The notes under the pieces are model-generated. The model was not told where the DNA came from and did not search any database. It saw only the letters and a list, made by a program, of their open reading frames with translations. The position numbers were made by a program, and so were the translations under genes. From assembly GCA_902812495.1 (NCBI GenBank), contig CADDZR010000001.1, positions 62,001 to 126,000 on the forward strand: a stretch of 64,000 bases of DNA. Reading direction: 5' to 3'. Source of the stretch: an archaeon. Its GTDB lineage: Archaea > Thermoproteota > Nitrososphaeria > Nitrososphaerales > Gagatemarchaeaceae. Below are positions 28,948-41,779 of this stretch, piece after piece (position 1 is the first letter of the stretch; every line of letters starts with the position of its first letter).

Positions 28948-29068
28948 GCCGGGGTGGCGGAGTCTGGCAACGCGCGGGCAACCCACGTCGGGTACGTAGC
29001 TCGAGATCGCCAGACATGCTAGCCCGTGACCCATTCGGGTCTTGTGGGTTCAAATCCCACCCCCGGCG
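28948..29068 (+). tRNA. tRNA-Ser (CGA), class II, with two apparent introns
   Basis: The acceptor stem is GCCGGGG/CCCCGGC with G73 (serine discriminator), the T arm is GTGGG TTCAAAT CCCAC, and the variable arm GACCC/GGGTC is long. Anticodon stem CGGGC/GCCCG encloses 42 bases. No single 35-base intron leaves a loop with U33 and a serine anticodon; two introns (20 bases before and 15 after) leave CTCGAGA with anticodon CGA. The mature tRNA would be 86 nt. Anticodon GCT read from TGCTA next to the 3' stem was considered, but it leaves a 6-base loop. Confidence 0.8.
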
Positions 29069-29108: not shown

Positions 29109-29582
29109 ATGGAGAGAGTTTTAAAGGGAAAAGATGCAACCGAGTTCGGTAGTTTGAAAGTCTCGCTCGTCTGGAACAGTCCTTTCCCTGAGAAGATAGT
29201 TTCGGTTGCAATGAGACGGTGTTATAGCACAAAACCGATAGAAGAAATAGATGCAGAACTCGATCAGAAGGGCATCGAGTATATGAAATACCTCTTGAAA
29301 AGAGCGTTAGAGGATAAAGCGCTTGACGTGTTTGAGCACTTTAGAATGGAGTTTTTGATTGAGAATTTAGACGAAACAACAGTAAATTCTGTGCTAATCT
29401 CATACCCGTTTGCTCACTGGTTACGTCTGAGTGGTCTCGAATGGTTGCTCGCCATTAACGCAAGAACTTTGATCGAGATGTGGAGAGACAAAGAAACCAA
29501 GCCCTTTGCATCGAAGCTGGTTGAGGTATTAAAAGAAAAGCACGTCTGTGATGCTTTCAACCAGGTGGTTTTTAATGAGTGA
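29109..29582 (+). CDS. ThyX-like protein lacking the RHR flavin/dUMP motif
   Basis: 157 residues from ATG 29109; longer frames would start inside tRNA-Ser. It follows the ThyX fold order: VSLVWNSPFPEKIVSVAMRR then CYSTKPIEE, the VFEHFRMEFLIE segment (equivalent to the conserved H-S-V-x-E-H helix), and NARTLIEMW near the C-terminus. The catalytic RHRxxSxNxxSxR stretch is replaced by LISYPFAHWLRLSGLEW. The next gene, overlapping by TGA/ATG, is a ThyX with that motif but without the CY and EH parts. The two may form one hetero-oligomeric enzyme. It could alternatively be a decayed duplicate, but its length and the coupled translation argue against that. Confidence 0.7.
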   Translation: MERVLKGKDATEFGSLKVSLVWNSPFPEKIVSVAMRRCYSTKPIEEIDAELDQKGIEYMKYLLKRALEDKALDVFEHFRMEFLIENLDETTVNSVLISYPFAHWLRLSGLEWLLAINARTLIEMWRDKETKPFASKLVEVLKEKHVCDAFNQVVFNE

Positions 29583-30114
29583 CATACGTGTTAAGTTGCT
29601 CTATTATACACCTGTAGATTCTATAAGAGGTATTTACGAACAGAAAGGTCTACCATTCAGGCCAGAAGCGGTCATGGATCATATTTTTTACATGTTCGAG
29701 ATAGAAGGATGTAGCAGGGTCACAACACATCAACTTGTCAGACACAGAGTTGCGTCTTACGACCAAGAGTCTCAAAGATTTTCTGCCGCCACGAAGGAAG
29801 GATTTGTTATACCGCCTAGCATAGCTTCCAACAAGTCTGCACTCGAAGTCTACCAAACAGCCTTAGAAGAGGTATATAGGGCGTTTGATAAATTAGTTTC
29901 ATTGGGGGTTCCTAAGGAGGATGCGAGGTACATCCTACCAAGCGCTCTAAAAACAAAGCTGGTGATGACAATTAACGCGCGTAGTCTAATGCATGTAGTT
30001 TGGTTACGTACTTCTATACAAGCGCAGTGGGAAATCAGAGAACTTGTGAGAATGATGTACGATCTTGCAAAAGAAGCAACACCTGAACTTTGGGCGAAAA
30101 TCATAGAGAAATGA
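29575..30114 (+). CDS. thyX: Flavin-dependent thymidylate synthase
   Basis: 179 residues from ATG 29575, which has CCAGGTGG upstream. The ThyX motif appears as RHRVASYDQESQRF, and NARSLMHVVWLRTSIQAQWEI is the C-terminal dUMP/FAD region. The enzyme methylates dUMP to dTMP using methylene-tetrahydrofolate, FAD and NADPH; no ThyA is in the window. The N-terminal third is unusual: after VKLLYYTP the normal A-x-x-C-Y element is missing, and MDHIFYMFEIEG stands where S-V-x-E-H-x-x-F-x-F is expected. The upstream paralogue keeps those parts. The gene overlaps the phosphohexomutase start by ATGA. Confidence 0.87.
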   Translation: MSDIRVKLLYYTPVDSIRGIYEQKGLPFRPEAVMDHIFYMFEIEGCSRVTTHQLVRHRVASYDQESQRFSAATKEGFVIPPSIASNKSALEVYQTALEEVYRAFDKLVSLGVPKEDARYILPSALKTKLVMTINARSLMHVVWLRTSIQAQWEIRELVRMMYDLAKEATPELWAKIIEK

Positions 30115-31430
30115 GTTCACTCCGTTTCGGAACCGCTGGTGTTAGAGGAGTTTTTGGTGAAACAATTCATGCTTCAGACTTCCTCAAGCTTGCGTTAGCG
30201 GTAGTAATGGTGACGAAGGGAAGAAGCTTTGTAATTGGGTGGGATAGCAGAAAAACTTCTGCTTTGATCGGGCATTGCATTATGTCAGTCCCTCAAGCAC
30301 TGGGTCGTGAAGCAATAGTAGTGGGGATGGTGCCTACACCTGTTGTAGCTTTCACCACAAGGGAAACCAAGTCTGCTGCTGGTTTTTCTGTAACGGCTTC
30401 TCATAACACACCCGAATTCGCAGGTATGAAAGTATTCGGCAGCGACGGTATGGAGTTGCAAAGAGATATGGAAAGAAGTATCGAGGATTCCTTCGGAAGG
30501 ATGGAAGGTATTTCCCTTAAGTTTGATAGTAAATGTTACATGTCCGATGGAATTAAGAAATATATTGAAAAGCTGATTGACTTTTTTGGGCACCCGGCAA
30601 GAAAGCTTCGAGTTTTGATTGACTGTGCGAATGGACCCGGAGCACTAATCACGCCTGTAGTTTTATCAAGATTAGGACACGAAGTTATCACATTGAATTG
30701 CCAGACATCTTGGCGCTTTCCTGCCAGAAATCCGGAGCCCACACCCTTGAACTTGGAAGACGTAAGTAAAATAGCAAAAAGTCTCAGGCCTGATGTTGCT
30801 TTCGCACATGACGGGGATGCTGACAGATTGGTCCTTATCGGCTCATCTGGCGAGGTTCTTCCCCATTCAGTCGGAAGTATACTTCTGCTTCAGTCACTCG
30901 AATTAAACAAAGGGACCGTAGTACTTTCAGAAAATATGTCGAACGCTGTGGAAGAGGTAGCAGTGAAGATGGGTCTCAGAGTGGAAAGGGCAAAGATAGG
31001 TAAGACATTCGTTAATCTGAGAGGAAATGCAATCCTAGCGATGGAGCCGAGTAAGGCTGCTTTCAGGCCGTGGGGCTATTGGGAAGATGGTATTTTTGCT
31101 GCTATTGCCATCTCCAAATTGGTTGCTTCAAGGAGCTCTATTATAAATGAGGTGGCAACGAATCTGAAGTGGAAATATTCACAGATCGATGTAATGAGCT
31201 CAGTGGATATCAGACAGCTAAGGGAGATTGTCTTCAAGCTTTTAAGCAAACAGAAGATAGCGAGAATAAGTGAGTTAGATGGTGCAAAATTTATTCTGGA
31301 TGATGGTTCATGGATTATGGTAAGAAAATCAGGCACTGAACCCAAGGTAAGAATATACTATGAATCAGGGAAGCGGTTTAATATGCATAGTATCGCAGAA
31401 CGAGTTGCAGCATATGCGAGAGGGGGTTAG
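30111..31430 (+). CDS. glmM: Phosphohexomutase (phosphoglucosamine/phosphomannomutase family)
   Basis: 439 residues from ATG 30111. The active-site phosphoserine is S97 in SVTASHNTPEF, the metal loop is AHDGDADRLVLI, the sugar-binding loop region is ILAMEPSKAAFR, and the phosphate-binding loop is VRKSGTEPKVRIY. It interconverts hexose 1- and 6-phosphates; archaeal enzymes of this type act on glucosamine, mannose or glucose phosphates, feeding glycan precursors such as those used by AglB. The exact sugar is not determined. It overlaps thyX by ATGA and precedes the PolD small subunit gene by 5 bases. Confidence 0.87.
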   Translation: MSSLRFGTAGVRGVFGETIHASDFLKLALAVVMVTKGRSFVIGWDSRKTSALIGHCIMSVPQALGREAIVVGMVPTPVVAFTTRETKSAAGFSVTASHNTPEFAGMKVFGSDGMELQRDMERSIEDSFGRMEGISLKFDSKCYMSDGIKKYIEKLIDFFGHPARKLRVLIDCANGPGALITPVVLSRLGHEVITLNCQTSWRFPARNPEPTPLNLEDVSKIAKSLRPDVAFAHDGDADRLVLIGSSGEVLPHSVGSILLLQSLELNKGTVVLSENMSNAVEEVAVKMGLRVERAKIGKTFVNLRGNAILAMEPSKAAFRPWGYWEDGIFAAIAISKLVASRSSIINEVATNLKWKYSQIDVMSSVDIRQLREIVFKLLSKQKIARISELDGAKFILDDGSWIMVRKSGTEPKVRIYYESGKRFNMHSIAERVAAYARGG

Positions 31431-31435
31431 GAATT

Positions 31436-32911
31436 ATGACTGAAAGGAAAGATGAAGAAATTGACGCATATGCTAACATTGTTTCTTACTTAACCACAAG
31501 AGGGTATATGATAGAGCCTGAGGCCCTAGAAGCTTTGAACTCTCTGGGTGATGATGCAGAAAAGGTCCTCTCGCAAATCATTGACTCGAAAAAGTCATCG
31601 GTAAATGATAAGTTAATAAAAATAGAGGACATTATTTCCTTCATACCAGCCAGGGAATCTCCTGCTCAGCAAGTGGTTGAAACGGAGCTTGAGGTAGTTT
31701 CTGACCCAACTAACGAGATTAAACCATTGAAACCTCTTGAAGGTTATTCGCGTTTGTTCACCGATAGGTACAATAAGCTTCTTGCTTTGCTGAGACAAAG
31801 GCCTGACTCGAAAGGTGTGGTTACATCAAGTTCCATAGTAAGATTTAGTGAGGGTTCAAAGGTGAAGGTCGCCGGCCTTTTATTCTCAAGAACTGAAAGG
31901 AAGAATGGTGTGGAGGTGACGCTTGACGATTCTTCAGGGCCTATAAGAGTATACTTCAGGGAAGGTTTGGTTCAACAAGCACTTAAAGTTCCGCTTGATT
32001 CTTTATTAATGATCGAGGGGATTAAGCTTGATGGGAATCAGCTACTTGCAACCCGACTGACTCTTCCCGATATTCCAGAACATAAACCAGTCTTGTTTTC
32101 GCATAGGATTTACGCTGTGCTACTCTCAGACTTGCATATAGGTAGCAAAATGTTTCTTGAAGAAGATTTCAAAAGATTTCTCCGGTGGCTTAACAAGGGT
32201 GACGGGGATGAGGATATCGTTTCTCGTATCAAGTATCTCGTTGTTGCGGGAGATTTAGTTGACGGTATAGGAGTGTATCCCGACCAAGAGATGCAGCTTG
32301 AGGAGAAAGAACCAGTAAGTCAATATGACAGGGCATATGATTTGCTTTCACAAGTCCCTGACTACATAACGATTGTGATATCTCCGGGTAATCACGATAT
32401 GGTTCGCCAGGCGCTCCCACAGCCAGCCATTCCTTCTAACCTAGCACGTAAGTTATATGGGATGGAAAATGTAGTTTTTGTTGGCAGCCCCGCATACGTC
32501 AAGCTAAGCGGTGTTCTTTTTTTAATTTTTCATGGACGGAGCCTTGACGATGTTATAGCAAGTACACCCGACCTTTCGTACAGAAGACCCTCTGAAGCCA
32601 TGAAAATCTTACTTAAGGCAAGACATCTTGCGCCGATTTATGGAAAGCGTACAGCTATCTCGCCAGAACCGAAGGATATGTTGGTCATAGACACAGTTCC
32701 TGATGTTATGCATTCTGGACATGTTCATACCCTTGATTACCAAGATTACAAAGGGACTCTCATAATTAACTCGGGCACATTCCAAGGGCAGACACCCTTT
32801 CAACAAAACATGGGACTAGAACCTACACCAAGCATAGTGCCTGTCATTGACCTTTCGAATTTGACAATTTTAAGACGAAGTTTTTCATCCCATCTTTCAT
32901 TCTCCACCTAA
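31436..32911 (+). CDS. dp1: DNA polymerase D small subunit (DP1), proofreading exonuclease
   Basis: 491 residues. The N-terminal region is helical, followed by an OB fold (about 130-215, VKVAGLLFSRTERKNGVEVT). The C-terminal calcineurin-like phosphoesterase has all metal motifs: LLSDLHIGSK, VVAGDLVDG, ISPGNHD, IFHGRS and MHSGHVHTLDY, so it should be an active 3'-5' exonuclease. It pairs with the large subunit encoded at 37074-40490, which is separated from it here by the origin region. The C-terminus lacks a clear PCNA-binding motif. It overlaps the convergent orc1 gene by 15 bases. Confidence 0.95.
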   Translation: MTERKDEEIDAYANIVSYLTTRGYMIEPEALEALNSLGDDAEKVLSQIIDSKKSSVNDKLIKIEDIISFIPARESPAQQVVETELEVVSDPTNEIKPLKPLEGYSRLFTDRYNKLLALLRQRPDSKGVVTSSSIVRFSEGSKVKVAGLLFSRTERKNGVEVTLDDSSGPIRVYFREGLVQQALKVPLDSLLMIEGIKLDGNQLLATRLTLPDIPEHKPVLFSHRIYAVLLSDLHIGSKMFLEEDFKRFLRWLNKGDGDEDIVSRIKYLVVAGDLVDGIGVYPDQEMQLEEKEPVSQYDRAYDLLSQVPDYITIVISPGNHDMVRQALPQPAIPSNLARKLYGMENVVFVGSPAYVKLSGVLFLIFHGRSLDDVIASTPDLSYRRPSEAMKILLKARHLAPIYGKRTAISPEPKDMLVIDTVPDVMHSGHVHTLDYQDYKGTLIINSGTFQGQTPFQQNMGLEPTPSIVPVIDLSNLTILRRSFSSHLSFST

Positions 32912-34078
32912 AGGTAGCCTTTGTTCGCTGTCAAGCAGATCGGAAACCAGCTTTGGGTCTACCAAAAGCCTTACCTTTTTTGTCCTGCCTTTTCTTCCTT
33001 TGCTTACAACGGAAGCTTGCACTAGGCCCAAAAGATCAAGCTCCGACAGAATGCCGCTTACCCTTCGCTGTGTCAAAGGGTCGAGACCTAGCTTTTTGCA
33101 AATGTTCGAATATACTATGTATATCTCGCCGGTGCTGGCCCCACCGACAAAGTGCGATACAGCGGTGAGTATTATCTTGTTTTGTATGGGTAGGGACCTG
33201 AGAGCTTCCTCTACTCTCTCGCGTTCCATCTTATCTGAGGCTTTTTTGACACACTGGTCATCGACCACATTTAACCCCTCCCGCTCCGCTATCTCGCCTG
33301 CAATTCTGAGTAGGTCCACAGCGCGACGTGCGTCTCCATGTTCTGAACCCGCTATTGCGGCACAGAGGTTTATCGCTGACTGAGAAACCGCATTCTCTAT
33401 AAAAGCCATTTGAGCCCTCTCACGAAGTATGTGAAGCAACTCTTCAACAGTATATGGTGGAAATACTATCTCCTCTTCACTTAGACTGCTTAAGACTCTT
33501 GGATCCAAGTCCTGTTTAAAATTCAAGTCGTTTGAAATGCCTATTAACGTCAAGTCGCCTGGGTGTAATCTTTCCGAAGATCTTGTCATCTCATATAGTG
33601 TACCGTCTCCGAAGTTCTTGACAAGATAATCTATCTCATCTAATGTTATTATCACATGAAGCCCTCTTTCCTTTACTGCTTTACAAAACCTCTCAAACTC
33701 TTCGGGAACCGAGATCCCTGTGAAGGGTATTTCAACTCCAACATAACGGCATAGCTCTGCTAGCGTCTTGTATTCAGTACCGGCCAAACGAGTGTTAATA
33801 TATGTCACGACGACCCTTCTGTCCGCCTCAGCCTTGAGTCTTGATAGAACGTATCGTACCACGGCTGTTTTACCTGTTCCCGTTTTTCCGTATACTAAGA
33901 GGTTGGAAGGTCTTGAACCATGCAACACAGGCGCTAACACTGCCGCTATTTCCCTTATTTGATTCTCCCTGAATGGTAAACGAGGTGGTATGTAATCCGG
34001 CGACAAAACTCCCTTGTCTTTGAATAGAGCTCTTCCTTGTTTTGCCCTTCTGAATATGTCTTCGACTTCATTCGACAT
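32897..34078 (-). CDS. cdc6: Replication initiator Orc1/Cdc6
   Basis: 393 residues from ATG 34078 (a TTG two codons upstream also fits). AAA+ core: Walker A is YGKTGTGKTAVVR, Walker B is VIITLDEIDYL, sensor 1 region is LTLIGISNDLNF, and the sensor 2 arginine lies in HGDARRAVDLLR. The C-terminal winged helix (LTQRRVSGILSELDLLGLV) binds origin DNA. The protein recognises ORB elements and loads MCM. Two ORB-like elements lie in the gap directly upstream of its start, the usual arrangement for an archaeal origin linked to its initiator. Confidence 0.96.
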   Translation of the reverse strand: MSNEVEDIFRRAKQGRALFKDKGVLSPDYIPPRLPFRENQIREIAAVLAPVLHGSRPSNLLVYGKTGTGKTAVVRYVLSRLKAEADRRVVVTYINTRLAGTEYKTLAELCRYVGVEIPFTGISVPEEFERFCKAVKERGLHVIITLDEIDYLVKNFGDGTLYEMTRSSERLHPGDLTLIGISNDLNFKQDLDPRVLSSLSEEEIVFPPYTVEELLHILRERAQMAFIENAVSQSAINLCAAIAGSEHGDARRAVDLLRIAGEIAEREGLNVVDDQCVKKASDKMERERVEEALRSLPIQNKIILTAVSHFVGGASTGEIYIVYSNICKKLGLDPLTQRRVSGILSELDLLGLVQASVVSKGRKGRTKKVRLLVDPKLVSDLLDSEQRLPLGGE

Positions 34079-34291
34079 GTGCAAGCTAAACTTAAGTGGA
34101 CTAGATAAGACCTCCGCCCCTCTATTTCTCCTGTTTCTCTTTGGAATAATGTATAAGTTGGTCTTGTTTATACGGAAGATAATGCACCGAACTAGGGTTT
34201 TTATGGGTTGATTATATGCTAAGTTGTGAAACGTAGTGAGCTAAGGATACACGAATTTGAACTAAAGTTTCGACAAGAAGAGGCGTATTTG

Positions 34292-34318
34292 CTACAGTGG
34301 AAACATAGGGGTGGGGGT
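34292..34318 (+). promoter_or_regulatory. Origin recognition box, copy 1
   Basis: CAGTGGAAACATAGGGG (34295-34311) with further Gs after it matches the archaeal mini-ORB pattern (CAGTGGAAACNAAGGGGT as remembered from Pyrococcus and Sulfolobus origins) with one substitution in the middle. The G-string points right. Confidence 0.82.
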
Positions 34319-34365
34319 AGGGCCTGTGAAACCATGTGAACAACTGATCACGAAATTGTGGCCTT

Positions 34366-34390
34366 CAATACCCCTTCGTTTCCAGTGGAA
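34366..34390 (-). promoter_or_regulatory. Origin recognition box, copy 2 (inverted)
   Basis: Read on the minus strand from 34390, the site is TTCCACTGGAAACGAAGGGG followed by T, nearly identical to the ORB consensus. It faces copy 1, with the G-strings towards each other and about 50 bases between the elements. Confidence 0.87.
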
Positions 34391-34407
34391 CAACTCCAAC
34401 TGTTCCA
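34386..34407. repeat. Inverted repeat at the edge of ORB 2
   Basis: TGGAACA (34386-34392) and TGTTCCA (34401-34407) form a perfect 7-bp inverted repeat with an 8-base centre. It overlaps the start of ORB 2 and may extend the Orc1 recognition region or bind another protein. Confidence 0.6.
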
Positions 34408-34597
34408 TTCAATTAAGGCTCGAATCTCGGAGTTAGGGCTTAAAAGCACAAAATTATAGTCATTTACCGTCGAGTTTATGTGAACTGATGTGAAGTATAG
34501 ATGAAGAATATAGCACCAAGTCAAACAATGTTTGCAACCGGTTCACAACTTCACACCAGTAAAATCTTAATTCGACTATAGGCAGCGGGCTTGGGGC

Positions 34598-34981
34598 TTG
34601 CGCAGGAAGATTAAGATAGAACTTGAGGATAGCGACGGTATTAAATATTCATTGTCTGTTGAGGGCAAGATATCACGCGAAAAAATCCTCAAGTTCATGG
34701 ATGCGCTGGAGTTAATGGATATACCCGTAGAAACATTTGAACACAAGCAAGATGGAACATTTTATTCTCGTGTGCGAGAGATAATTGAAACGGACTTCGC
34801 CGGTGTCCAGTTTTCTTCGTCAGATGTGGCTAGGGAGCTTGAAGAAAAATACGGTATGCCGGTTAAGCTGAGCACAATCTCCACATATTTAGCGCGACTC
34901 GCTGAGGACGAATACCTTAAGAGGGAAAGGTTCGGAAATTCCTGGGTCTACAGGAGAAACTACCTCAAATCACGTGCCTGA
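34598..34981 (+). CDS. Winged-helix protein next to the origin
   Basis: 127 residues from TTG. The N-terminal part is a small beta-rich domain (IKIELEDSDGIKYSLSVEG), then a helical segment (ISREKILKFMDALELMD). The C-terminal half is a winged helix: SRVREIIETDFAGVQFSSSD, VARELEEKYGMPVKLSTIS as HTH, and YLKRERFGNSWVYRR as wing. No family name is recognised with confidence. Its promoter region contains the TGTGAA inverted pair, so autoregulation or origin binding is possible. Its end overlaps the convergent membrane-anchored wHTH gene by 12 bases. Confidence 0.7.
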   Translation: MRRKIKIELEDSDGIKYSLSVEGKISREKILKFMDALELMDIPVETFEHKQDGTFYSRVREIIETDFAGVQFSSSDVARELEEKYGMPVKLSTISTYLARLAEDEYLKRERFGNSWVYRRNYLKSRA

Positions 34982-35470
34982 GAGTTTCTTCTTTCCTTCT
35001 TCCGTTATAAAATACACATACGGCTTTTTGGATGAGTCTCGCGTGACTAGTCCTTTATCAAACAGCCCTTTCATTAACCTCGCCGTATGCTCTCTAGTTC
35101 TAGCAACCATGTTTCTAAGCTCAGTTACGGTTTTAGGACCAGAAGCCAGCGCGCTAAGGATTTGTTTTTCAGTTGAATCTAGAGACCTGGACGACAACAA
35201 CTGGGAACCTACTTCCAACTTCTTTGAAGTTTTTTCGTACCCAGCAGGCCGACTCGTAGACAGCAGATCTACACGAACCATTAAGTCGATTATTCTCCCT
35301 TGAATACTCTCTAGTCTTTGTTCTATATAACCTAGAGACTGTTCGACCGTCAACCTTTCGGACCGCAGGCGCCTTAATACCCTTGCCATCCTAATAAGAG
35401 CGACTAAAAGGATCGTCAAAGAAAATAAGATAGCCGATACCGCGAAGTCTATCGTGACGTCGTCCACCAC
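34970..35470 (-). CDS. Membrane-anchored winged-helix regulator
   Basis: 166 residues from GTG. One N-terminal membrane helix (FAVSAILFSLTILLVALI), then a coiled-coil linker (SLGYIEQRLESIQGRIIDLM), then a MarR-like winged helix in the last 75 residues (STEKQILSALASGPKTVTEL, NMVARTREHTARLMKGLFDKG, PYVYFITEEGKKKL). The topology would place the DNA-binding domain in the cytoplasm, tethered to the membrane. A 16-bp perfect palindrome covers its start codon, suggesting autoregulation. Being next to the presumed origin, it could tether that region to the membrane; this is speculative. Confidence 0.72.
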   Translation of the reverse strand: MVDDVTIDFAVSAILFSLTILLVALIRMARVLRRLRSERLTVEQSLGYIEQRLESIQGRIIDLMVRVDLLSTSRPAGYEKTSKKLEVGSQLLSSRSLDSTEKQILSALASGPKTVTELRNMVARTREHTARLMKGLFDKGLVTRDSSKKPYVYFITEEGKKKLSGT

Positions 35471-35483
35471 ATCATATGATGTG
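35468..35483. promoter_or_regulatory. 16-bp perfect palindrome at the start codon of the membrane wHTH gene
   Basis: CACATCATATGATGTG is a perfect palindrome whose first three bases are the GTG start codon (minus strand) of the 34970-35470 gene. A looser related arrangement, GTGAT and ATCAC with 12 bases between, follows at 35486-35507. Probable operator. Confidence 0.65.
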
Positions 35484-35512
35484 ACGTGATATGCTAATAA
35501 ACATCACTCTAG

Positions 35513-35866
35513 TCACTCTACTATCCTTCTTACTATCTCGCTTAACACGGTTACCAGTTCCCTGTTCAATTCCTCAGGGCCCTTTCCGTTAACAAGGTTG
35601 AGAAGTCTAATCACACTTGTAGTATCGATATGGCCAGTCATCGACCCGATTATCAAATTAATTAAGGACTTTCGAAGCTTGGATTTCGATTGACTCAATA
35701 TTCTGTAATACGTGCCCCGCGATATCCGTTTTTCAGGGGTAATTTGGAGAGCATCTTTAACTCTCATTTTACCCGATTTAACATGGCTGTGCATCAGTAA
35801 AATCTGGAGTTGGGTTTCGGTCAATGAAGACATATTTCTAAGATCATATAATATTTGGTTCTGCAA
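35513..35866 (-). CDS. HTH-containing small protein
   Basis: 117 residues. The N-terminal 65 residues look like a helix-turn-helix of the sigma-70 region 4 or response-regulator type (SLTETQLQILLMHSHVKSG, VKDALQITPEKRISRGTYYR as recognition area). The rest is helical (LRKSLINLIIGSMTGHID). No close family recognised; it may be a lineage-specific regulator. AT-rich promoter sequence lies in the 180-base gap shared with the divergent Elf1-like gene. Confidence 0.6.
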   Translation of the reverse strand: MQNQILYDLRNMSSLTETQLQILLMHSHVKSGKMRVKDALQITPEKRISRGTYYRILSQSKSKLRKSLINLIIGSMTGHIDTTSVIRLLNLVNGKGPEELNRELVTVLSEIVRRIVE

Positions 35867-36046
35867 TACAAAACTGTATTACCTACCACTATTTATTAAT
35901 TGCTTTGCTCTTTCAAAAATTTTCCCGTAATATTTCTTATATTTATATTTATTGCAACTAAGAGTTCATATGATTTACCTTATTACGCATGTACTGGGTT
36001 CAATAAATACAAATAAGCGCTCCGTTAACCACTTGTGGGCGAGAAG

Positions 36047-36301
36047 TTGGGTAGGAGACGTAGGAGGGTTGTTAAAACAATTAAAAGGACGCTTCCAAAG
36101 GTTTTTGCATGTCCTCAATGTGGTATGGTAACAGTTCGAATCACGTCACACGAGGACGAGATATCACATGACGTGATCTATCTGGTAGCCTGCGGTAATG
36201 TCGCCTGTGGCGTGAGAAGGGAACTTAGGTATCCGGCTAAAAAGGAAGAGATAGATGTTTACAACACATTTGTAGACGATTTCATGAGGGCGAGTTCTTA
36301 G
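36047..36301 (+). CDS. elf1: Transcription elongation factor Elf1-like zinc protein
   Basis: 84 residues from TTG 36047, giving the family start MGRRRRRVVK; GTG 36035 would add four residues. The zinc ribbon is ACPQCGMVTVRI and VACGNVACGVRREL, followed by an acidic tail (EEIDVYNTFVDDFM). Elf1 binds RNA polymerase near the downstream DNA and helps elongation through chromatin in eukaryotes; archaeal homologues are known in TACK lineages. The next gene begins one base after its stop. Confidence 0.85.
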   Translation: MGRRRRRVVKTIKRTLPKVFACPQCGMVTVRITSHEDEISHDVIYLVACGNVACGVRRELRYPAKKEEIDVYNTFVDDFMRASS

Positions 36302-37072
36302 ATGGATTACGTTGGTCCAGTAGAAAAGTACATTTTAAAGAACAGGAATGGTGGAACAAAGATGTTAGCAGCGTTACTGGACCCTGATTCATTTGATGCA
36401 AGAGGTGCAGCAAGAGTTGCGAAGGTTGCCGAGGACGCCGGTGCCTCCCTAATCTTGGTAGGTGGGTCAACCGTCGTGGAACAATCACATTTGGATCGTG
36501 TTACACGTGATGTTAAGAGGAATGTCACAATACCTGTGATATTGTTTCCGAACAACGTCACAGGAATCACGAAATATGCTGACGCAATACTATTCATGTC
36601 CATGATGAACTCTACTAATCATTATTTCATGTATGGAGCCCAGGTCTTAGGTGCGAGAATTGTACACAGATATAGGCTTGAGGCATTGCCCACCGGTTAT
36701 GTAGTTATTGGCGGGCAAAGTTCAGCCTCGTTCGTTGGGTATGCTAATCCACTCCCTAGCTCTCGGCCTGAGTTGGCCTCAGTTTATGCGATGGCCGCGT
36801 GGTATTTAGGTATGCGTTTCTTATACTTGGAAGCCGGAAGCGGAAGCATAGAACCTCTTAGTCCAGATGCCGTTCGCCAAGCAAGGAAGTTTTACCCTGG
36901 TGTAATTTTGGCCGGAGGGGGGATAAAGACCGAAAGAGATGCAAGCGCGTTGGCTTCTTCCGGAGCAGATATAGTTGTAGTGGGTAATTTAATGGAAACG
37001 CCCAACTTTGAGGAGAAGATAAAGACAATAGCGGAATCTTTAAAGAAGATTAAAAACAAAATCAGGAAGTAA
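36302..37072 (+). CDS. Geranylgeranylglyceryl phosphate synthase
   Basis: 256 residues, TIM barrel of the PcrB/GGGPS family. Key segments are LAALLDPDSF near 22-31, SLILVGGSTVVEQSHLDRV, PVILFPNNVTGITKYADAIL, LYLEAGSGS (product/phosphate binding) and VILAGGGIKTERDA with VVVGNLME. It joins geranylgeranyl diphosphate to glycerol-1-phosphate, the first committed step of archaeal ether lipid synthesis. It is sandwiched between elf1 and the PolD large subunit gene with spacings of 0-1 base, so the genes are probably cotranscribed. Confidence 0.93.
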   Translation: MDYVGPVEKYILKNRNGGTKMLAALLDPDSFDARGAARVAKVAEDAGASLILVGGSTVVEQSHLDRVTRDVKRNVTIPVILFPNNVTGITKYADAILFMSMMNSTNHYFMYGAQVLGARIVHRYRLEALPTGYVVIGGQSSASFVGYANPLPSSRPELASVYAMAAWYLGMRFLYLEAGSGSIEPLSPDAVRQARKFYPGVILAGGGIKTERDASALASSGADIVVVGNLMETPNFEEKIKTIAESLKKIKNKIRK

Positions 37073-37073
37073 C

Positions 37074-40000
37074 GTGTCACAGTCTGAGTTCTCGACAATA
37101 GGTCCCGTGCCACAATCTATCAACAGGTATTACTCCTATATATCACTGCAATGCGAAGAAGCAAAAAGAATAGCTCTTTTGGCACGTTCTAAAGGCATTG
37201 ACCCTACACAACAATACGAATCAAGATTTGTAGTTGACCTCGCAGATAGGGTGGGGGAACTCTTGGGCCTAAACCAGTTTGGGGGTTTTGTTGATAGACT
37301 CAGAACTTTGCTTAGTGAACAGGGTAAGGAAAAGGCCGCGATGACGATAGCACAGGAGGTCGCGCTTGGTAAGTTTGGTTACCTTGAGACAGAAAAAGCC
37401 CTTGAGTATGGCGTGAGAGCAGGTCTGGCCATAATGACCGACGGCGTTACTGTAGCCCCTATCCAGGGTCTATATTCTGTGTCGATCAAACAAAACGACG
37501 ATGGAAGTAATTACCCCTCCCTCAATTTTGCAGGACCTATGAGGTCCGCTGGTGGAACGGAGGCGGGCTTCACCCTTGTGATAGCCGATATGGTGGCGCG
37601 GAAGCTAGGATTATCTCGATATCTACCAAGAGAAGAAGAAATAGGAAGGTTCGTTGAAGAGTTAAGGATCTACGAAAGGGATGTTGGAAACTTTCAGTTT
37701 CATGTTTCAGACGAGGACATAAGATTCGCAATATCTAACCTCCCAGTGGAGATAGATGGCATTGAAACAGACCCAGTCGAAGTCATAGTTCACCGAAATT
37801 TAAAAAGAATTCACACAAATAGAGTAAGAGGTGGAGCGTTACGCGTTCTTAATGACGGGATCATAGGAAGAGCGAATAAACTACTCAAGAAGCTACACGA
37901 CTTGGGAGTCAGCGGATGGGAATGGCTGAACGAAATAAAAGGCGGAAAACAGCGGTCCAGCGCTGAAACTGAACAAACACAGTCACATTTCGAAGAGGTA
38001 ATATCTGGTCGTGCAGTCCTTTCATTACCAAAGCGAAGGGGTGGCTTCAGATTAAGGTACGGGAGGTCGATGAATACGGGATTATCAACCGTAGGTATTC
38101 ATCCAACAATTACTATCTTGCTAGACTTTCCGGTTGTAGTGGGTACACAGGTCAAAATCGACATGCCTGGAAAAGCTGCTACAATCGCATTCGTGGATTC
38201 CATAGAGCCCCCGACGGTTTTGCTCCAAGACAGATCTGTCGTAAAGGTCCGTAACATACAGGAAGCATATTACCTTAAGAAACAAGTCGTGAAAATTCTT
38301 GACTTAGGAGACATCTTAATCAGTTATGGTGACTTTCTTGAGAACAATAAAGATTTGCCACCTTCGCCATATGTACTAGAGTGGTGGCAATATGACCTGA
38401 AAAGAAGCCTTGAGACGAGAGATAAAGAAGTATCTAACGTGATGCCCCTAGAAAGAATCAACCAAATTATTGAAGATCAAAGAGGTGGTGGCATGACGGC
38501 TCAAGAGGCCCTGGCGCTCAGTAGATGCCTACAAATACCCCTTTGTCCATTATATACTCCTCGTTTTGAGAATATAAGCATATCCGAATTTGTGGAACTA
38601 CGCAAAAACATGGAACTAATAGGGGATAACCTCGTCATAAGGCTTGACAATGGAATTGAACAAATACTTCATAAGTTACTTGTGGAATATCGCGTTAATG
38701 ATGGCTACGCATACTTAATAAACGGTTGGGGCTATATATTGTCAGAATTATTTAGCATTAAAAGTACTTCAATCAATACATCGTTTAAAGACGTTCTAGA
38801 GCTCATTGAAAACATATCCGGTATAAAAATAGGCAGACAACAATCTCGAGTTATAGGTGTAAGAGTTGGTCGACCTGAAAAGGCGATGTTACGGAAGTTA
38901 AAGCCACCTGTTCATTGCCTCTTCCCTGTTGGCTCAAACGGCGATCAAAAACGTGACATAGTTAAAGCTGCCAACAAAAGGTACATAACAATAGAACTAG
39001 CTAACGTGATGTGCCCAAACTGTAAAGAAAGACAATTCTCTGCAATTTGTGATACATGCTCACAACACACAATCCGTTTTCTTTCGTGTCAGAAGTGCGG
39101 TATCGAAGTCTCTAGTGAAGTTTGCCCAAGGTGCAAAGGACCTGTCGGCACCTTCTCCGAAACTAGGATCGAACTTGGAAAGTTAGTAGAGAGTGCTTCA
39201 AGAAGGGCTCGGGCGGAGGGCATAAAGACGGTAAAAGGTGTCAAAGGCCTTTCTAGTCAGTCTAAATTTCCAGAAAGACTTGAAAAAGGATTTCTCCGCA
39301 GCAAATATAATCTCTACGTTTACAAAGACGGAACGATAAGAGTTGATATAACCAACGCACCGTTAACTCACTTCAGACCCGCAGACATCGGGACAAGCAT
39401 AACTGCGTTACACAAGCTCGGGTACACACACGATATTACAGGTCAGGAGCTTAAATCAGAAAACCAAGTTTTGGAATTAAAACCTCAAGATATCGTATTA
39501 CCTGATTCGGTTGCAAACGAACTGATAAAGATAGCAAATTTTGTAGATGACGAACTCCAATATCTTTACGGCTTGGATCCATACTATAAAATAAAAACCA
39601 AAGAAGATGTGATAGGGCGTCTAGTCGTAGGACTTGCTCCACACACTTCGGTTGGGATTATAGGAAGAGTGATTGGCTTCGCTCGCTCTCAGGTCTGTTT
39701 TGCAGGTCCCTGTTGGCATGCTGCCAAAAGAAGAGACTGCGACGGAGACGGGGATTCTGTAATGCTTCTTATGGATGTATTACTCAATTTCTCCGTTGAA
39801 TTTGTACCAGATCAGATAGGTGGGTTAATGGACGTGCCTCTTCTTATCCAATCGCTTGTTTTACCAACAGAAGTAGACGAACAAGCACACAACTTTGATA
39901 TAGCAAGAAGATATCCTAGAGAGTTCTACGAGCTTACTCAAAAAAGCGTTCCTGCCTCCATCGCTGAAAAATATATAGAAACAATTAAATCAAGACTTGG

Positions 40001-40490
40001 CACTGAAAGACAATACTATGACTTTGGCTTTACTCATGAAACTTGGAGTATTGTTATCGATAGAGAAAGGTCTGCTTACTCATCTCTTAGAACACTGAGA
40101 GAAAAAATAGCTAAGCAGATAGAGATAGCAGAAAAAATTGAGGCTGTTTCTGCGAAAGAAGTGGTGGAATCCATAGTGAAGACACACTTACTTAGGGATA
40201 TAATGGGAAATGCAAAAAAATATGCTTCGCAAACTTTTAAATGTAAAAGATGTGGTCAAATTCATAGGCGTTTTCCCTTATCAGGTGCTTGCATACGCTG
40301 CGGTGGTCAACTTCATGAAACATTGAGTCAGGCATCAGTGTCAAAATACCTTTCACTTGCAAAAGAATTGGCTGATAGATACAACATCGACCCGTACCTC
40401 AGAGAAAGGATAAGGTCACTTGAAACAGAATTGTTACAACTATTTCAAAAAGAACGAGAAGGACAAATGGAGCTTTCTGATTTTGCTTAG
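37074..40490 (+). CDS. dp2: DNA polymerase D large subunit (DP2), catalytic
   Basis: 1138 residues from GTG. The DPBB-type catalytic core is visible late in the protein: HTSVGIIGRVIGFARSQVCF, then KRRDCDGDGDSVMLLMD, which carries the paired catalytic aspartates. Zinc sites are CPNCKERQFSAICDTC with CQKCGIE and CPRCKG in the middle, and CKRCGQIHRRFPLSGACIRC near the C-terminus. GPMRSAGGTEAGFTLVIADM in the N-terminal part is also characteristic. The usual N-C-D-G-D-E-D catalytic string reads D-C-D-G-D-G-D here. No intein interrupts the frame. The C-terminal SDFA tail lacks an evident PIP motif. It partners DP1 at 31436-32911. Confidence 0.96.
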   Translation: MSQSEFSTIGPVPQSINRYYSYISLQCEEAKRIALLARSKGIDPTQQYESRFVVDLADRVGELLGLNQFGGFVDRLRTLLSEQGKEKAAMTIAQEVALGKFGYLETEKALEYGVRAGLAIMTDGVTVAPIQGLYSVSIKQNDDGSNYPSLNFAGPMRSAGGTEAGFTLVIADMVARKLGLSRYLPREEEIGRFVEELRIYERDVGNFQFHVSDEDIRFAISNLPVEIDGIETDPVEVIVHRNLKRIHTNRVRGGALRVLNDGIIGRANKLLKKLHDLGVSGWEWLNEIKGGKQRSSAETEQTQSHFEEVISGRAVLSLPKRRGGFRLRYGRSMNTGLSTVGIHPTITILLDFPVVVGTQVKIDMPGKAATIAFVDSIEPPTVLLQDRSVVKVRNIQEAYYLKKQVVKILDLGDILISYGDFLENNKDLPPSPYVLEWWQYDLKRSLETRDKEVSNVMPLERINQIIEDQRGGGMTAQEALALSRCLQIPLCPLYTPRFENISISEFVELRKNMELIGDNLVIRLDNGIEQILHKLLVEYRVNDGYAYLINGWGYILSELFSIKSTSINTSFKDVLELIENISGIKIGRQQSRVIGVRVGRPEKAMLRKLKPPVHCLFPVGSNGDQKRDIVKAANKRYITIELANVMCPNCKERQFSAICDTCSQHTIRFLSCQKCGIEVSSEVCPRCKGPVGTFSETRIELGKLVESASRRARAEGIKTVKGVKGLSSQSKFPERLEKGFLRSKYNLYVYKDGTIRVDITNAPLTHFRPADIGTSITALHKLGYTHDITGQELKSENQVLELKPQDIVLPDSVANELIKIANFVDDELQYLYGLDPYYKIKTKEDVIGRLVVGLAPHTSVGIIGRVIGFARSQVCFAGPCWHAAKRRDCDGDGDSVMLLMDVLLNFSVEFVPDQIGGLMDVPLLIQSLVLPTEVDEQAHNFDIARRYPREFYELTQKSVPASIAEKYIETIKSRLGTERQYYDFGFTHETWSIVIDRERSAYSSLRTLREKIAKQIEIAEKIEAVSAKEVVESIVKTHLLRDIMGNAKKYASQTFKCKRCGQIHRRFPLSGACIRCGGQLHETLSQASVSKYLSLAKELADRYNIDPYLRERIRSLETELLQLFQKEREGQMELSDFA

Positions 40491-41779
40491 GAGGTTACAT
40501 AGGCTCTTCCACGGCTGAAAGAGTACTCAACCAGTTGGAACCCCTTTCTTAACTCCCTTACCTTGGAGGCAACAGGCCCTGGGTCTTCCTTAGTTATCCC
40601 CTCATAGATTAAGTTCGCCACTTCTATCATTTCGCTTTCTTTCATACCAAGTCTTGTAAGCTCAGAGACGCCGAGCCTAATTCCACCAGGGTTTGTATAA
40701 TGTCTTCCGGCTTGCAGGTCTCCAGGTATCAGCTGTCTGTTGACGATTATATTACACAGCTCAAGTTTTCTTTCGATTTGAGTTCCATCACCAAAGCGGG
40801 TTACATCTAGAGCCACTTGGTGCGATTTCGTAAAACCTACATTTTCTCCAAGCACTTGCAATCCAAGTTCGCTTAACCTTTGAGCTAATGCCTTTGCGTT
40901 TCTTGTTACTTGGTGAGCATACTCTTTACCGAAGCGAAGGTATTCAGCAAACGCAAGTGCTTTGCCGGCGACACTATGCAAGTGATGGTTACTTGTAACA
41001 CCCGGAAAGACAGCTTGTTTAATCTCTTCAACATATTTACCATTCGTTGCTATAGCACCACCTTGAGGTCCGAAAAGTGTTTTATGCGTACTAAATGTAA
41101 GTACATCTGCACCTTCACGAAGGGGGTCTTGGAAAGCGCCACCCGCAATCAAACCTATAACATGTGCCGCATCATAACAAACCACACCTCCGTTTTCTTT
41201 TATAACATCAGCGAGTTCTCTCACAGGATGTGGAAATAAAAACAAACTTGCGCCGAACATGGCAATTCTAGGCTTCTTCCCTAGTTTTTCCAATCTTTTC
41301 TTCGTGGCATCAATGTCTATGTTCATGATGTTCTTATCAAATGCAAAATACTCAACGTCCAAATTGTGTACCAGGCCCGCCGTACCACCAAAGTCACGTT
41401 TGCCCATGGATATGTGGCCACCATTGGGTATGGATAATGCCATAAGGGTGTCACCCGCAGATGATAAAGCAGAGTAAACAGCCAAGTTTGCGGTAACGCC
41501 CGAAATCGGTCGTACATCAACGAATTCGGCCCCGAGCAATTTCTTTGCTAGGTCTATAGCAATCAACTCCACTTCGTCTATATATTTGCATCCTGCATAT
41601 ACCCTTTCACCAGGCCAACCTTCAGCGTATCTATGACCGAAGTCTGACGACAAAGCTGCCCTTACCTCTGAAGATGTTATATTCTCGCTTGCAACAAGAG
41701 GCAGGCATTCTGAAAACCATCTATGATGAGTTTCTATCTTCTCAAGCACTTGCTTAAATACAGTCTCATACTGATCCAT
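40487..41779 (-). CDS. glyA: Serine hydroxymethyltransferase
   Basis: 430 residues. PLP-fold type I with LPLVASENITSSEVRAAL at the N-terminus, GHRYAEGWPGERVYAGCKYID, YDAAHVIGLIAGGAF, the lysine motif TFSTHKTLFGPQGG, and GGIRLGVSELTRLGM. It interconverts serine and glycine while charging a folate or archaeal pterin with a one-carbon unit, which ThyX and the glycine cleavage system in this window also use. It converges on dp2 with a 4-base overlap. Confidence 0.95.
   Translation of the reverse strand: MDQYETVFKQVLEKIETHHRWFSECLPLVASENITSSEVRAALSSDFGHRYAEGWPGERVYAGCKYIDEVELIAIDLAKKLLGAEFVDVRPISGVTANLAVYSALSSAGDTLMALSIPNGGHISMGKRDFGGTAGLVHNLDVEYFAFDKNIMNIDIDATKKRLEKLGKKPRIAMFGASLFLFPHPVRELADVIKENGGVVCYDAAHVIGLIAGGAFQDPLREGADVLTFSTHKTLFGPQGGAIATNGKYVEEIKQAVFPGVTSNHHLHSVAGKALAFAEYLRFGKEYAHQVTRNAKALAQRLSELGLQVLGENVGFTKSHQVALDVTRFGDGTQIERKLELCNIIVNRQLIPGDLQAGRHYTNPGGIRLGVSELTRLGMKESEMIEVANLIYEGITKEDPGPVASKVRELRKGFQLVEYSFSRGRAYVTS

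Follow-up and report, generated by a model that had tools for sequence, protein, structure and literature searches.

Flavin-Dependent Thymidylate Synthases

The flavin-dependent thymidylate synthase (FDTS) ThyX is essential and is a target for antibacterial agents. ThyX enzymes in the literature are homotetramers with active sites built at three-subunit interfaces. In the Mycobacterium tuberculosis enzyme, the FAD of subunit A is contacted by the RHR motif of that subunit, by two residues of B (Ser71 and Arg190), and by the Gln103 backbone of C; the dUMP contacts are Arg95 and Arg199 on A and Arg87, Ser105, and Arg107 on C (PMC6514825). From their neighbors Ser71 and Arg190, we infer that Glu74 and Asn188 also belong to role B. 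In single-chain ThyX of this kind, represented by Thermotoga maritima and M. tuberculosis, every chain carries all of these residues and the tetramer has four equivalent sites. The two adjacent archaeal genes described here, P1 and P2, are predicted to share this fold, the same catalytic residues when taken over both chains, and sites made from several subunits, but each chain carries only one of two complementary subsets.

The closest single-chain relatives of the pair are ThyX enzymes of the same type from f7 and f9, two families of the order to which the genome studied here belongs (L003–L006); the f7 enzymes are closest to P1 (52% over 73 aa with L003), and the f9 and f7 enzymes to P2 (about 50%). 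They share a Phe lid residue with P2, and those of f9 also have the Asp that P1 carries at the FAD serine position. Unlike P1/P2, they are unduplicated, each a complete chain of about 205 aa. Other single-chain enzymes are longer: one of 431 aa in f45 (L093, G508) has an apparent intein-like insert just before SHQLVRHR, and two in f34 of 381 and 320 aa (L094 in G541 and L095 in G375) carry long, mutually unlike inserts after the active-site loop.

The nearest known relatives in concept are the two-domain ThyX proteins of about 480–560 aa found in ammonia-oxidizing archaea and others (L063–L068, L098), which, like P1/P2, combine two unequal ThyX domains. In the Nitrosopumilus type only the C-terminal domain still has the RHR motif; in L064, which is of this type, the N-terminal domain lacks RHR and has an N-x-R motif. 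These proteins differ from P1/P2 in being single chains with nearly full-length domains from other subfamilies, and in dividing the roles differently as judged by eye. The two-domain enzymes look asymmetric and are possibly another ThyX with composite sites. The ThyX of Chlamydia is also long and two-domain. Closer in its division of residues is a fusion of about 400–420 aa from the family f21 (L058–L060, L080), with an N-terminal half that lacks a full RHR motif and a C-terminal half that lacks the CY helix, though this protein is one ORF, belongs to an f18/f13-like subfamily, and has a separate origin. The family f21 may be Conexivisphaera, a guess on which no argument here rests.

A preliminary description of the locus held that a ThyX assembled from two specialized subunits was not known to have been described. 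Consistent with this, no description of a heteromeric, split, or tandem ThyX was found in the open literature searched, an absence that is not proof; the arrangement is not, however, unique to this genome.

The P1–P2 Gene Pair

The window, the whole 64,000-nucleotide stretch of DNA analyzed here, comes from the 1.34-Mb metagenome-assembled genome (MAG) of a soil archaeon, which is 94.9% complete. Both genes lie on the forward strand. P1, the putative B-role paralogue (29154..29582, +), encodes 142 aa from a TTG codon at 29154, which is probably the start in preference to the ATG at 29109 because every orthologue begins at the residue aligned with 29154. P2, the putative A/C-role paralogue (29575..30114, +), encodes 179 aa; 17 aligned orthologues are available for each. 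Re-reading of the ORFs bore out the preliminary description of both genes: P1 contains AMRRCYSTKP and VFEH without RHR, P2 contains RHRVASYDQESQRF without the CY element and has MDH in place of E-H, and the stop and start overlap, by 8 nt (29575–29582). The CY helix, the E-H segment, and the NAR motif are present in P1; missing from it are the RHR motif, the active-site loop, and the arginines that bind dUMP. P2 has these last three, lacks the CY helix, and has an Asp for the E-H glutamate. A whole-genome search found no second ThyX.

Profile searches recognize the two chains very unequally. P2 matches Pfam Thy1 (PF02511; cut-off 24.8 bits) with E = 3.1e-50 and 171.1 bits, over profile positions 51–191 only, and scores 135.1 bits against the NCBIfam thyX equivalog TIGR02170, above its cut-off of 87.9 bits. 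P1 matches PF02511 over positions 2–67 only (E = 5.7e-6, 26.7 bits, barely over the cut-off) and reaches 24.3 bits with TIGR02170, far under its cut-off. A phmmer search of P1 against the PDB gave RNase P as the sole match (E = 0.011), which was judged to be chance.

The segments that each chain retains indicate that the pair did not arise by cutting one gene in two. P2 opens with a first strand of its own (VKLLYYTP), and P1 closes with an NAR(T)L segment of its own, which includes N102 and R104, binds FAD in ThyX, and comes late in that enzyme. Because P2 keeps the first strand and P1 keeps the NAR(T)L segment, each must bear a different internal deletion: in P1 of the active-site loop and the helical part that follows, with a degenerate helix at the expected RHR site, and in P2 of the CY helix region. 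P1 and P2 are complementary deletion paralogues.

The pair is set in a DNA-replication neighborhood, with genes for a phosphomannomutase (PMM)-like protein, the small subunit of DNA polymerase II (PolD), Cdc6, the large PolD subunit, and serine hydroxymethyltransferase (SHMT) within 12 kb; a PcrB-like gene is also present among these genes at 30114–41779. SHMT makes the one-carbon donor. Just upstream of P1, at 28949–29068, lies what is probably an intron-containing class II tRNA gene, recognized by eye from its matching ends (GCCGGGG...CCCCGGC) and detected neither by ARAGORN nor by Rfam at cut-off.

Division of the Active-Site Residues

Residues were counted in a sequence alignment of 41 pairs (41 RHR chains, P2 among them, and 41 partner chains, P1 among them) and 32 archaeal single-chain ThyX enzymes. 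The residues of roles A and C are found in P2. Its RHR motif (residues 56–58; 29740..29748, +), which corresponds to the motif that binds FAD and dUMP in the subunit A role, is present in 41/41 RHR chains, as are the Ser and Arg of the active-site loop S66-Q-R68-F69 (29770..29781, +; dUMP binding, subunit C role). The same is true of Arg118 (29926..29928, +; T. maritima Arg147), on a segment missing from all partners, and of Arg145 (30007..30009, +; T. maritima Arg174, M. tuberculosis Arg199; dUMP, subunit A role), a position that is not conserved or missing in the 41 partners. The RHR-X7-S motif, which reads RHRVASYDQES in P2, is invariant together with R68, R118, and R145 in 41/41 RHR chains. 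In terms of the known enzymes, Arg87, RHR, Ser105, Arg107, T. maritima Arg147, and Arg199 are kept by all 41 RHR chains and by 32/32 single-chain enzymes; from the 41 partners they have mostly or entirely disappeared. RHR and the active-site loop are missing from all P1 rows, and parts of RHR persist in the partners of f21 and of the G487 order, a different order of the phylum. In place of the loop's lid Tyr (29779–29781 in the window), every P2 and the f7/f9 enzymes have Phe, and the f21 fusion has His.

The partner chains hold the converse set. P1 Cys23-Tyr24 (29220..29225, +) occupies the folate-loop position (T. maritima Ser30-Phe31), with Cys in 21/21 P1 rows; the column is gapped, and the CY helix missing, in all RHR chains. 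At P1 Glu61-His62 (29334..29339, +; T. maritima Glu58-His59), Glu, which is Glu74 in M. tuberculosis numbering, occurs in 41/41 partners but in 2/41 RHR chains. It is missing from the other 39 RHR chains (17 of the 39 have Asp) and present in 32/32 archaeal single-chain ThyX. At P1 Asn102-Ala-Arg104 (29457..29465, +; M. tuberculosis Asn188/Arg190), Arg is found in 41/41 partners vs. 24/41 RHR chains, the 17 losses being 5 to Lys and the others to Y, A, W, G, and E, and Asn188 in 37/41 vs. 7/41. Across the 41 pairs of this alignment, the RHR chain retains the residues that ThyX crystal structures assign to subunits A and C, and the partner retains those assigned to subunit B. P1 and P2 together hold all of the catalytic residues, with exceptions shared by their single-chain relatives: the FAD serine/threonine position is Asp in P1 as in f9, and T. 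maritima His53 is missing from both chains as from f7/f9.

These counts bear on whether P2 could be a working homotetramer, with P1 as an inactive paralogue of regulatory or chaperone-like function. P2 exceeds the equivalog cut-off, and in the window it keeps an intact NAR motif (N134, R136), so loss from P2 has gone less far here than in its relatives. P2 nevertheless lacks a full FAD/folate set on its own chain, with its CY helix deleted and its E-H Glu replaced, and among RHR chains the helix is absent throughout, the Glu from 39/41, and the FAD-binding Arg from 17/41, while every one of the 41 partners keeps both Glu and Arg. If P1 were a regulator, it would not be expected to conserve, in more than one lineage, precisely those catalytic residues that the RHR chain lacks, and we regard this explanation as unlikely.

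Predicted Fold

The preliminary description had made its reading depend on the first protein sharing the ThyX fold. The AlphaFold2 model of P1, built with 18 sequences (pLDDT 93.1, pTM 0.86), matches ThyX structures: against the PDB with Foldseek, 50/50 among the matches listed are ThyX, the best with E = 1.4e-4 and probability 1.00, and TMq among the matches listed is 0.58–0.70. P1 is thus predicted to have the ThyX fold. In an AlphaFold2 model of P1 fused to P2 each half is well folded, but the position of one relative to the other is not fixed (pTM 0.63), and this model was set aside as evidence for pairing.

Conservation and dTMP Supply

Within the family of the window's genome, Gagatemarchaeaceae (f1), P1 adjoins P2 in 18/18 P2-carrying genomes. 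Two related genomes that carry the pair, SubAcS15-15 and SubAcS15-57, belong to this family (group I.1c; PMC10640624). The dN/dS values of 0.055–0.114 for P1 and 0.045–0.105 for P2 point to purifying selection. Given the Pfam E-values and this joint conservation under purifying selection, the resemblance of the pair to ThyX is not a matter of chance. The genome is a MAG, and an assembly error, a frameshift, or a decaying pseudogene could in principle produce such a locus. With the same layout in 18 family genomes and in other lineages, and dN/dS of 0.045–0.114, the probability of such an artefact is negligible; the comparative data refute both this and a simple gene split. Further copies occur: G031 has a second pair (L062, contig C67) in which P1 and P2, both intact, lie about 1.5 kb apart with ORFs between them, and G063, a genome of the family f20, likewise carries the pair twice (L056, L057), with one copy truncated where a contig ends.

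The overlap of the genes, and the natural single-chain fusion in f21, might also suggest that programmed frameshifting joins P1 and P2 into a single protein. Across the family, however, the junction is usually an 11-nt overlap and sometimes a gap of 3–8 nt, and the frame of P2 relative to P1 may be +1, 0, or +2, a variation that makes a frameshift fusion unlikely. As P2 also has its own start and first strand, and the genes are well separated in the G031 copy, we consider frameshifting highly improbable.

No ThyA was found in any genome of the family. The pair is present in G006, a single contig listed as 100% complete, in which neither ThyA nor thymidine kinase was found; by gene content, the pair should therefore be its only dTMP route. 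The window's own genome also encodes thymidine kinase, which leaves it the option of salvage. Three family members (G016, G018, G020) have thymidine kinase and no detected ThyX or ThyA, which suggests that synthesis has been replaced by salvage.

A heteromer whose main reaction is not dUMP methylation, such as another uracil or nucleotide modification, would be one way to account for the Phe lid of P2, as flavin oxidation is about 1000-fold slower in the corresponding Y91F variant of the T. maritima enzyme (PMC11940539). The single-chain f7/f9 relatives have the same Phe, though, every dUMP-binding arginine is retained, and G006 has no other detected source of dTMP; this makes a different main reaction very unlikely.

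Recurrence in Other Archaea

A survey of other lineages, suggested in the preliminary description, recovered the pair in f20 and in the G487 order, and in fused form in f21. In f20, from another order of the class, a search with the P1 model places P1 and P2 side by side in 4/4 genomes (G063, G078, G084, G087). In f21, of the same order as f20, four genomes encode the two halves in one ORF of 397–423 aa. In the G487 order (f64, f76), 28/32 genomes have a ThyX match of the RHR-half type, and the partner lies directly upstream in 16/16 genomes read, usually with a 4-nt overlap. Nine genomes of this order have a distant ThyA-like match, which is missing from several of the most complete.

In phylogenetic trees, P2 groups with f9 (support 100), the f21 C-terminal half with f18/f13-like enzymes, and the RHR half of the G487 order among f28/f58/f25-like enzymes. 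The approximately unbiased (AU) test rejects a single clade of all RHR halves (p = 0.0015), and with it a single common origin of all divided forms; P2 with the f21 half is likewise rejected (p = 0.011; 8.6e-6 in a smaller set), and P2 with the G487-order half is borderline (p = 0.049). These sequence comparisons support at least two origins of divided ThyX, so that the partition was reached more than once. A third origin is likely but is not claimed as shown, because the halves of f21 and the G487 order are not separated: grouping them is not rejected (p = 0.094), and the N-half tree unites them (98.3/98), on long branches.

A Proposed Heteromeric ThyX

These observations lead to the hypothesis, to which we assign a probability of about 0.82, that P1 and P2 assemble into a single heteromeric ThyX, with an A2B2 tetramer as the likeliest form. 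A single-chain ThyX like those of f7/f9 would have been duplicated, and the copies would then have lost complementary parts, so that each came to depend on the other. P2 would act in the A and C roles: its RHR motif and terminal arginine would hold FAD and dUMP, with dUMP covered by a loop from another P2 chain. P1 would act in the B role, where the FAD pocket, and probably that for folate, would be completed by its NAR motif, E-H segment, and CY/folate-loop helix. In a tetramer of 222 symmetry with P2 as A and C and P1 as B and D, that symmetry would leave two of the four sites complete and two lost. The putative activity of such a complex is argued from conservation and pathway gaps, and its stoichiometry from symmetry. 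The heteromer with a composite site envisaged in the preliminary description gains support from the predicted fold of P1, the loss of residues along subunit roles in at least two lineages, and the natural fusion, but the single complete site that it foresaw would become two per A2B2.

Whether divided ThyX is a recurrent archaeal outcome is more evenly balanced, and we give roughly equal credence to either answer. Under such a scheme, duplication and complementary loss along subunit roles would have occurred at least three separate times (in Gagatemarchaeaceae and f20, in the f21 fusion, and in the G487 order), with the two-domain ThyX of ammonia oxidizers as a further case, to give A2B2 enzymes with two working sites.

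For annotation, the partner subunit scores near or under family cut-offs and is easily overlooked or labeled a fragment. For the study of ThyX, P1/P2 would be a clean system in which to assign residues to subunits and count working sites, with natural replicates and single-chain relatives available for comparison. If the heteromer is real, its mutually dependent, half-equipped subunits would illustrate how complementary loss turns a homomer into an obligate heteromer.
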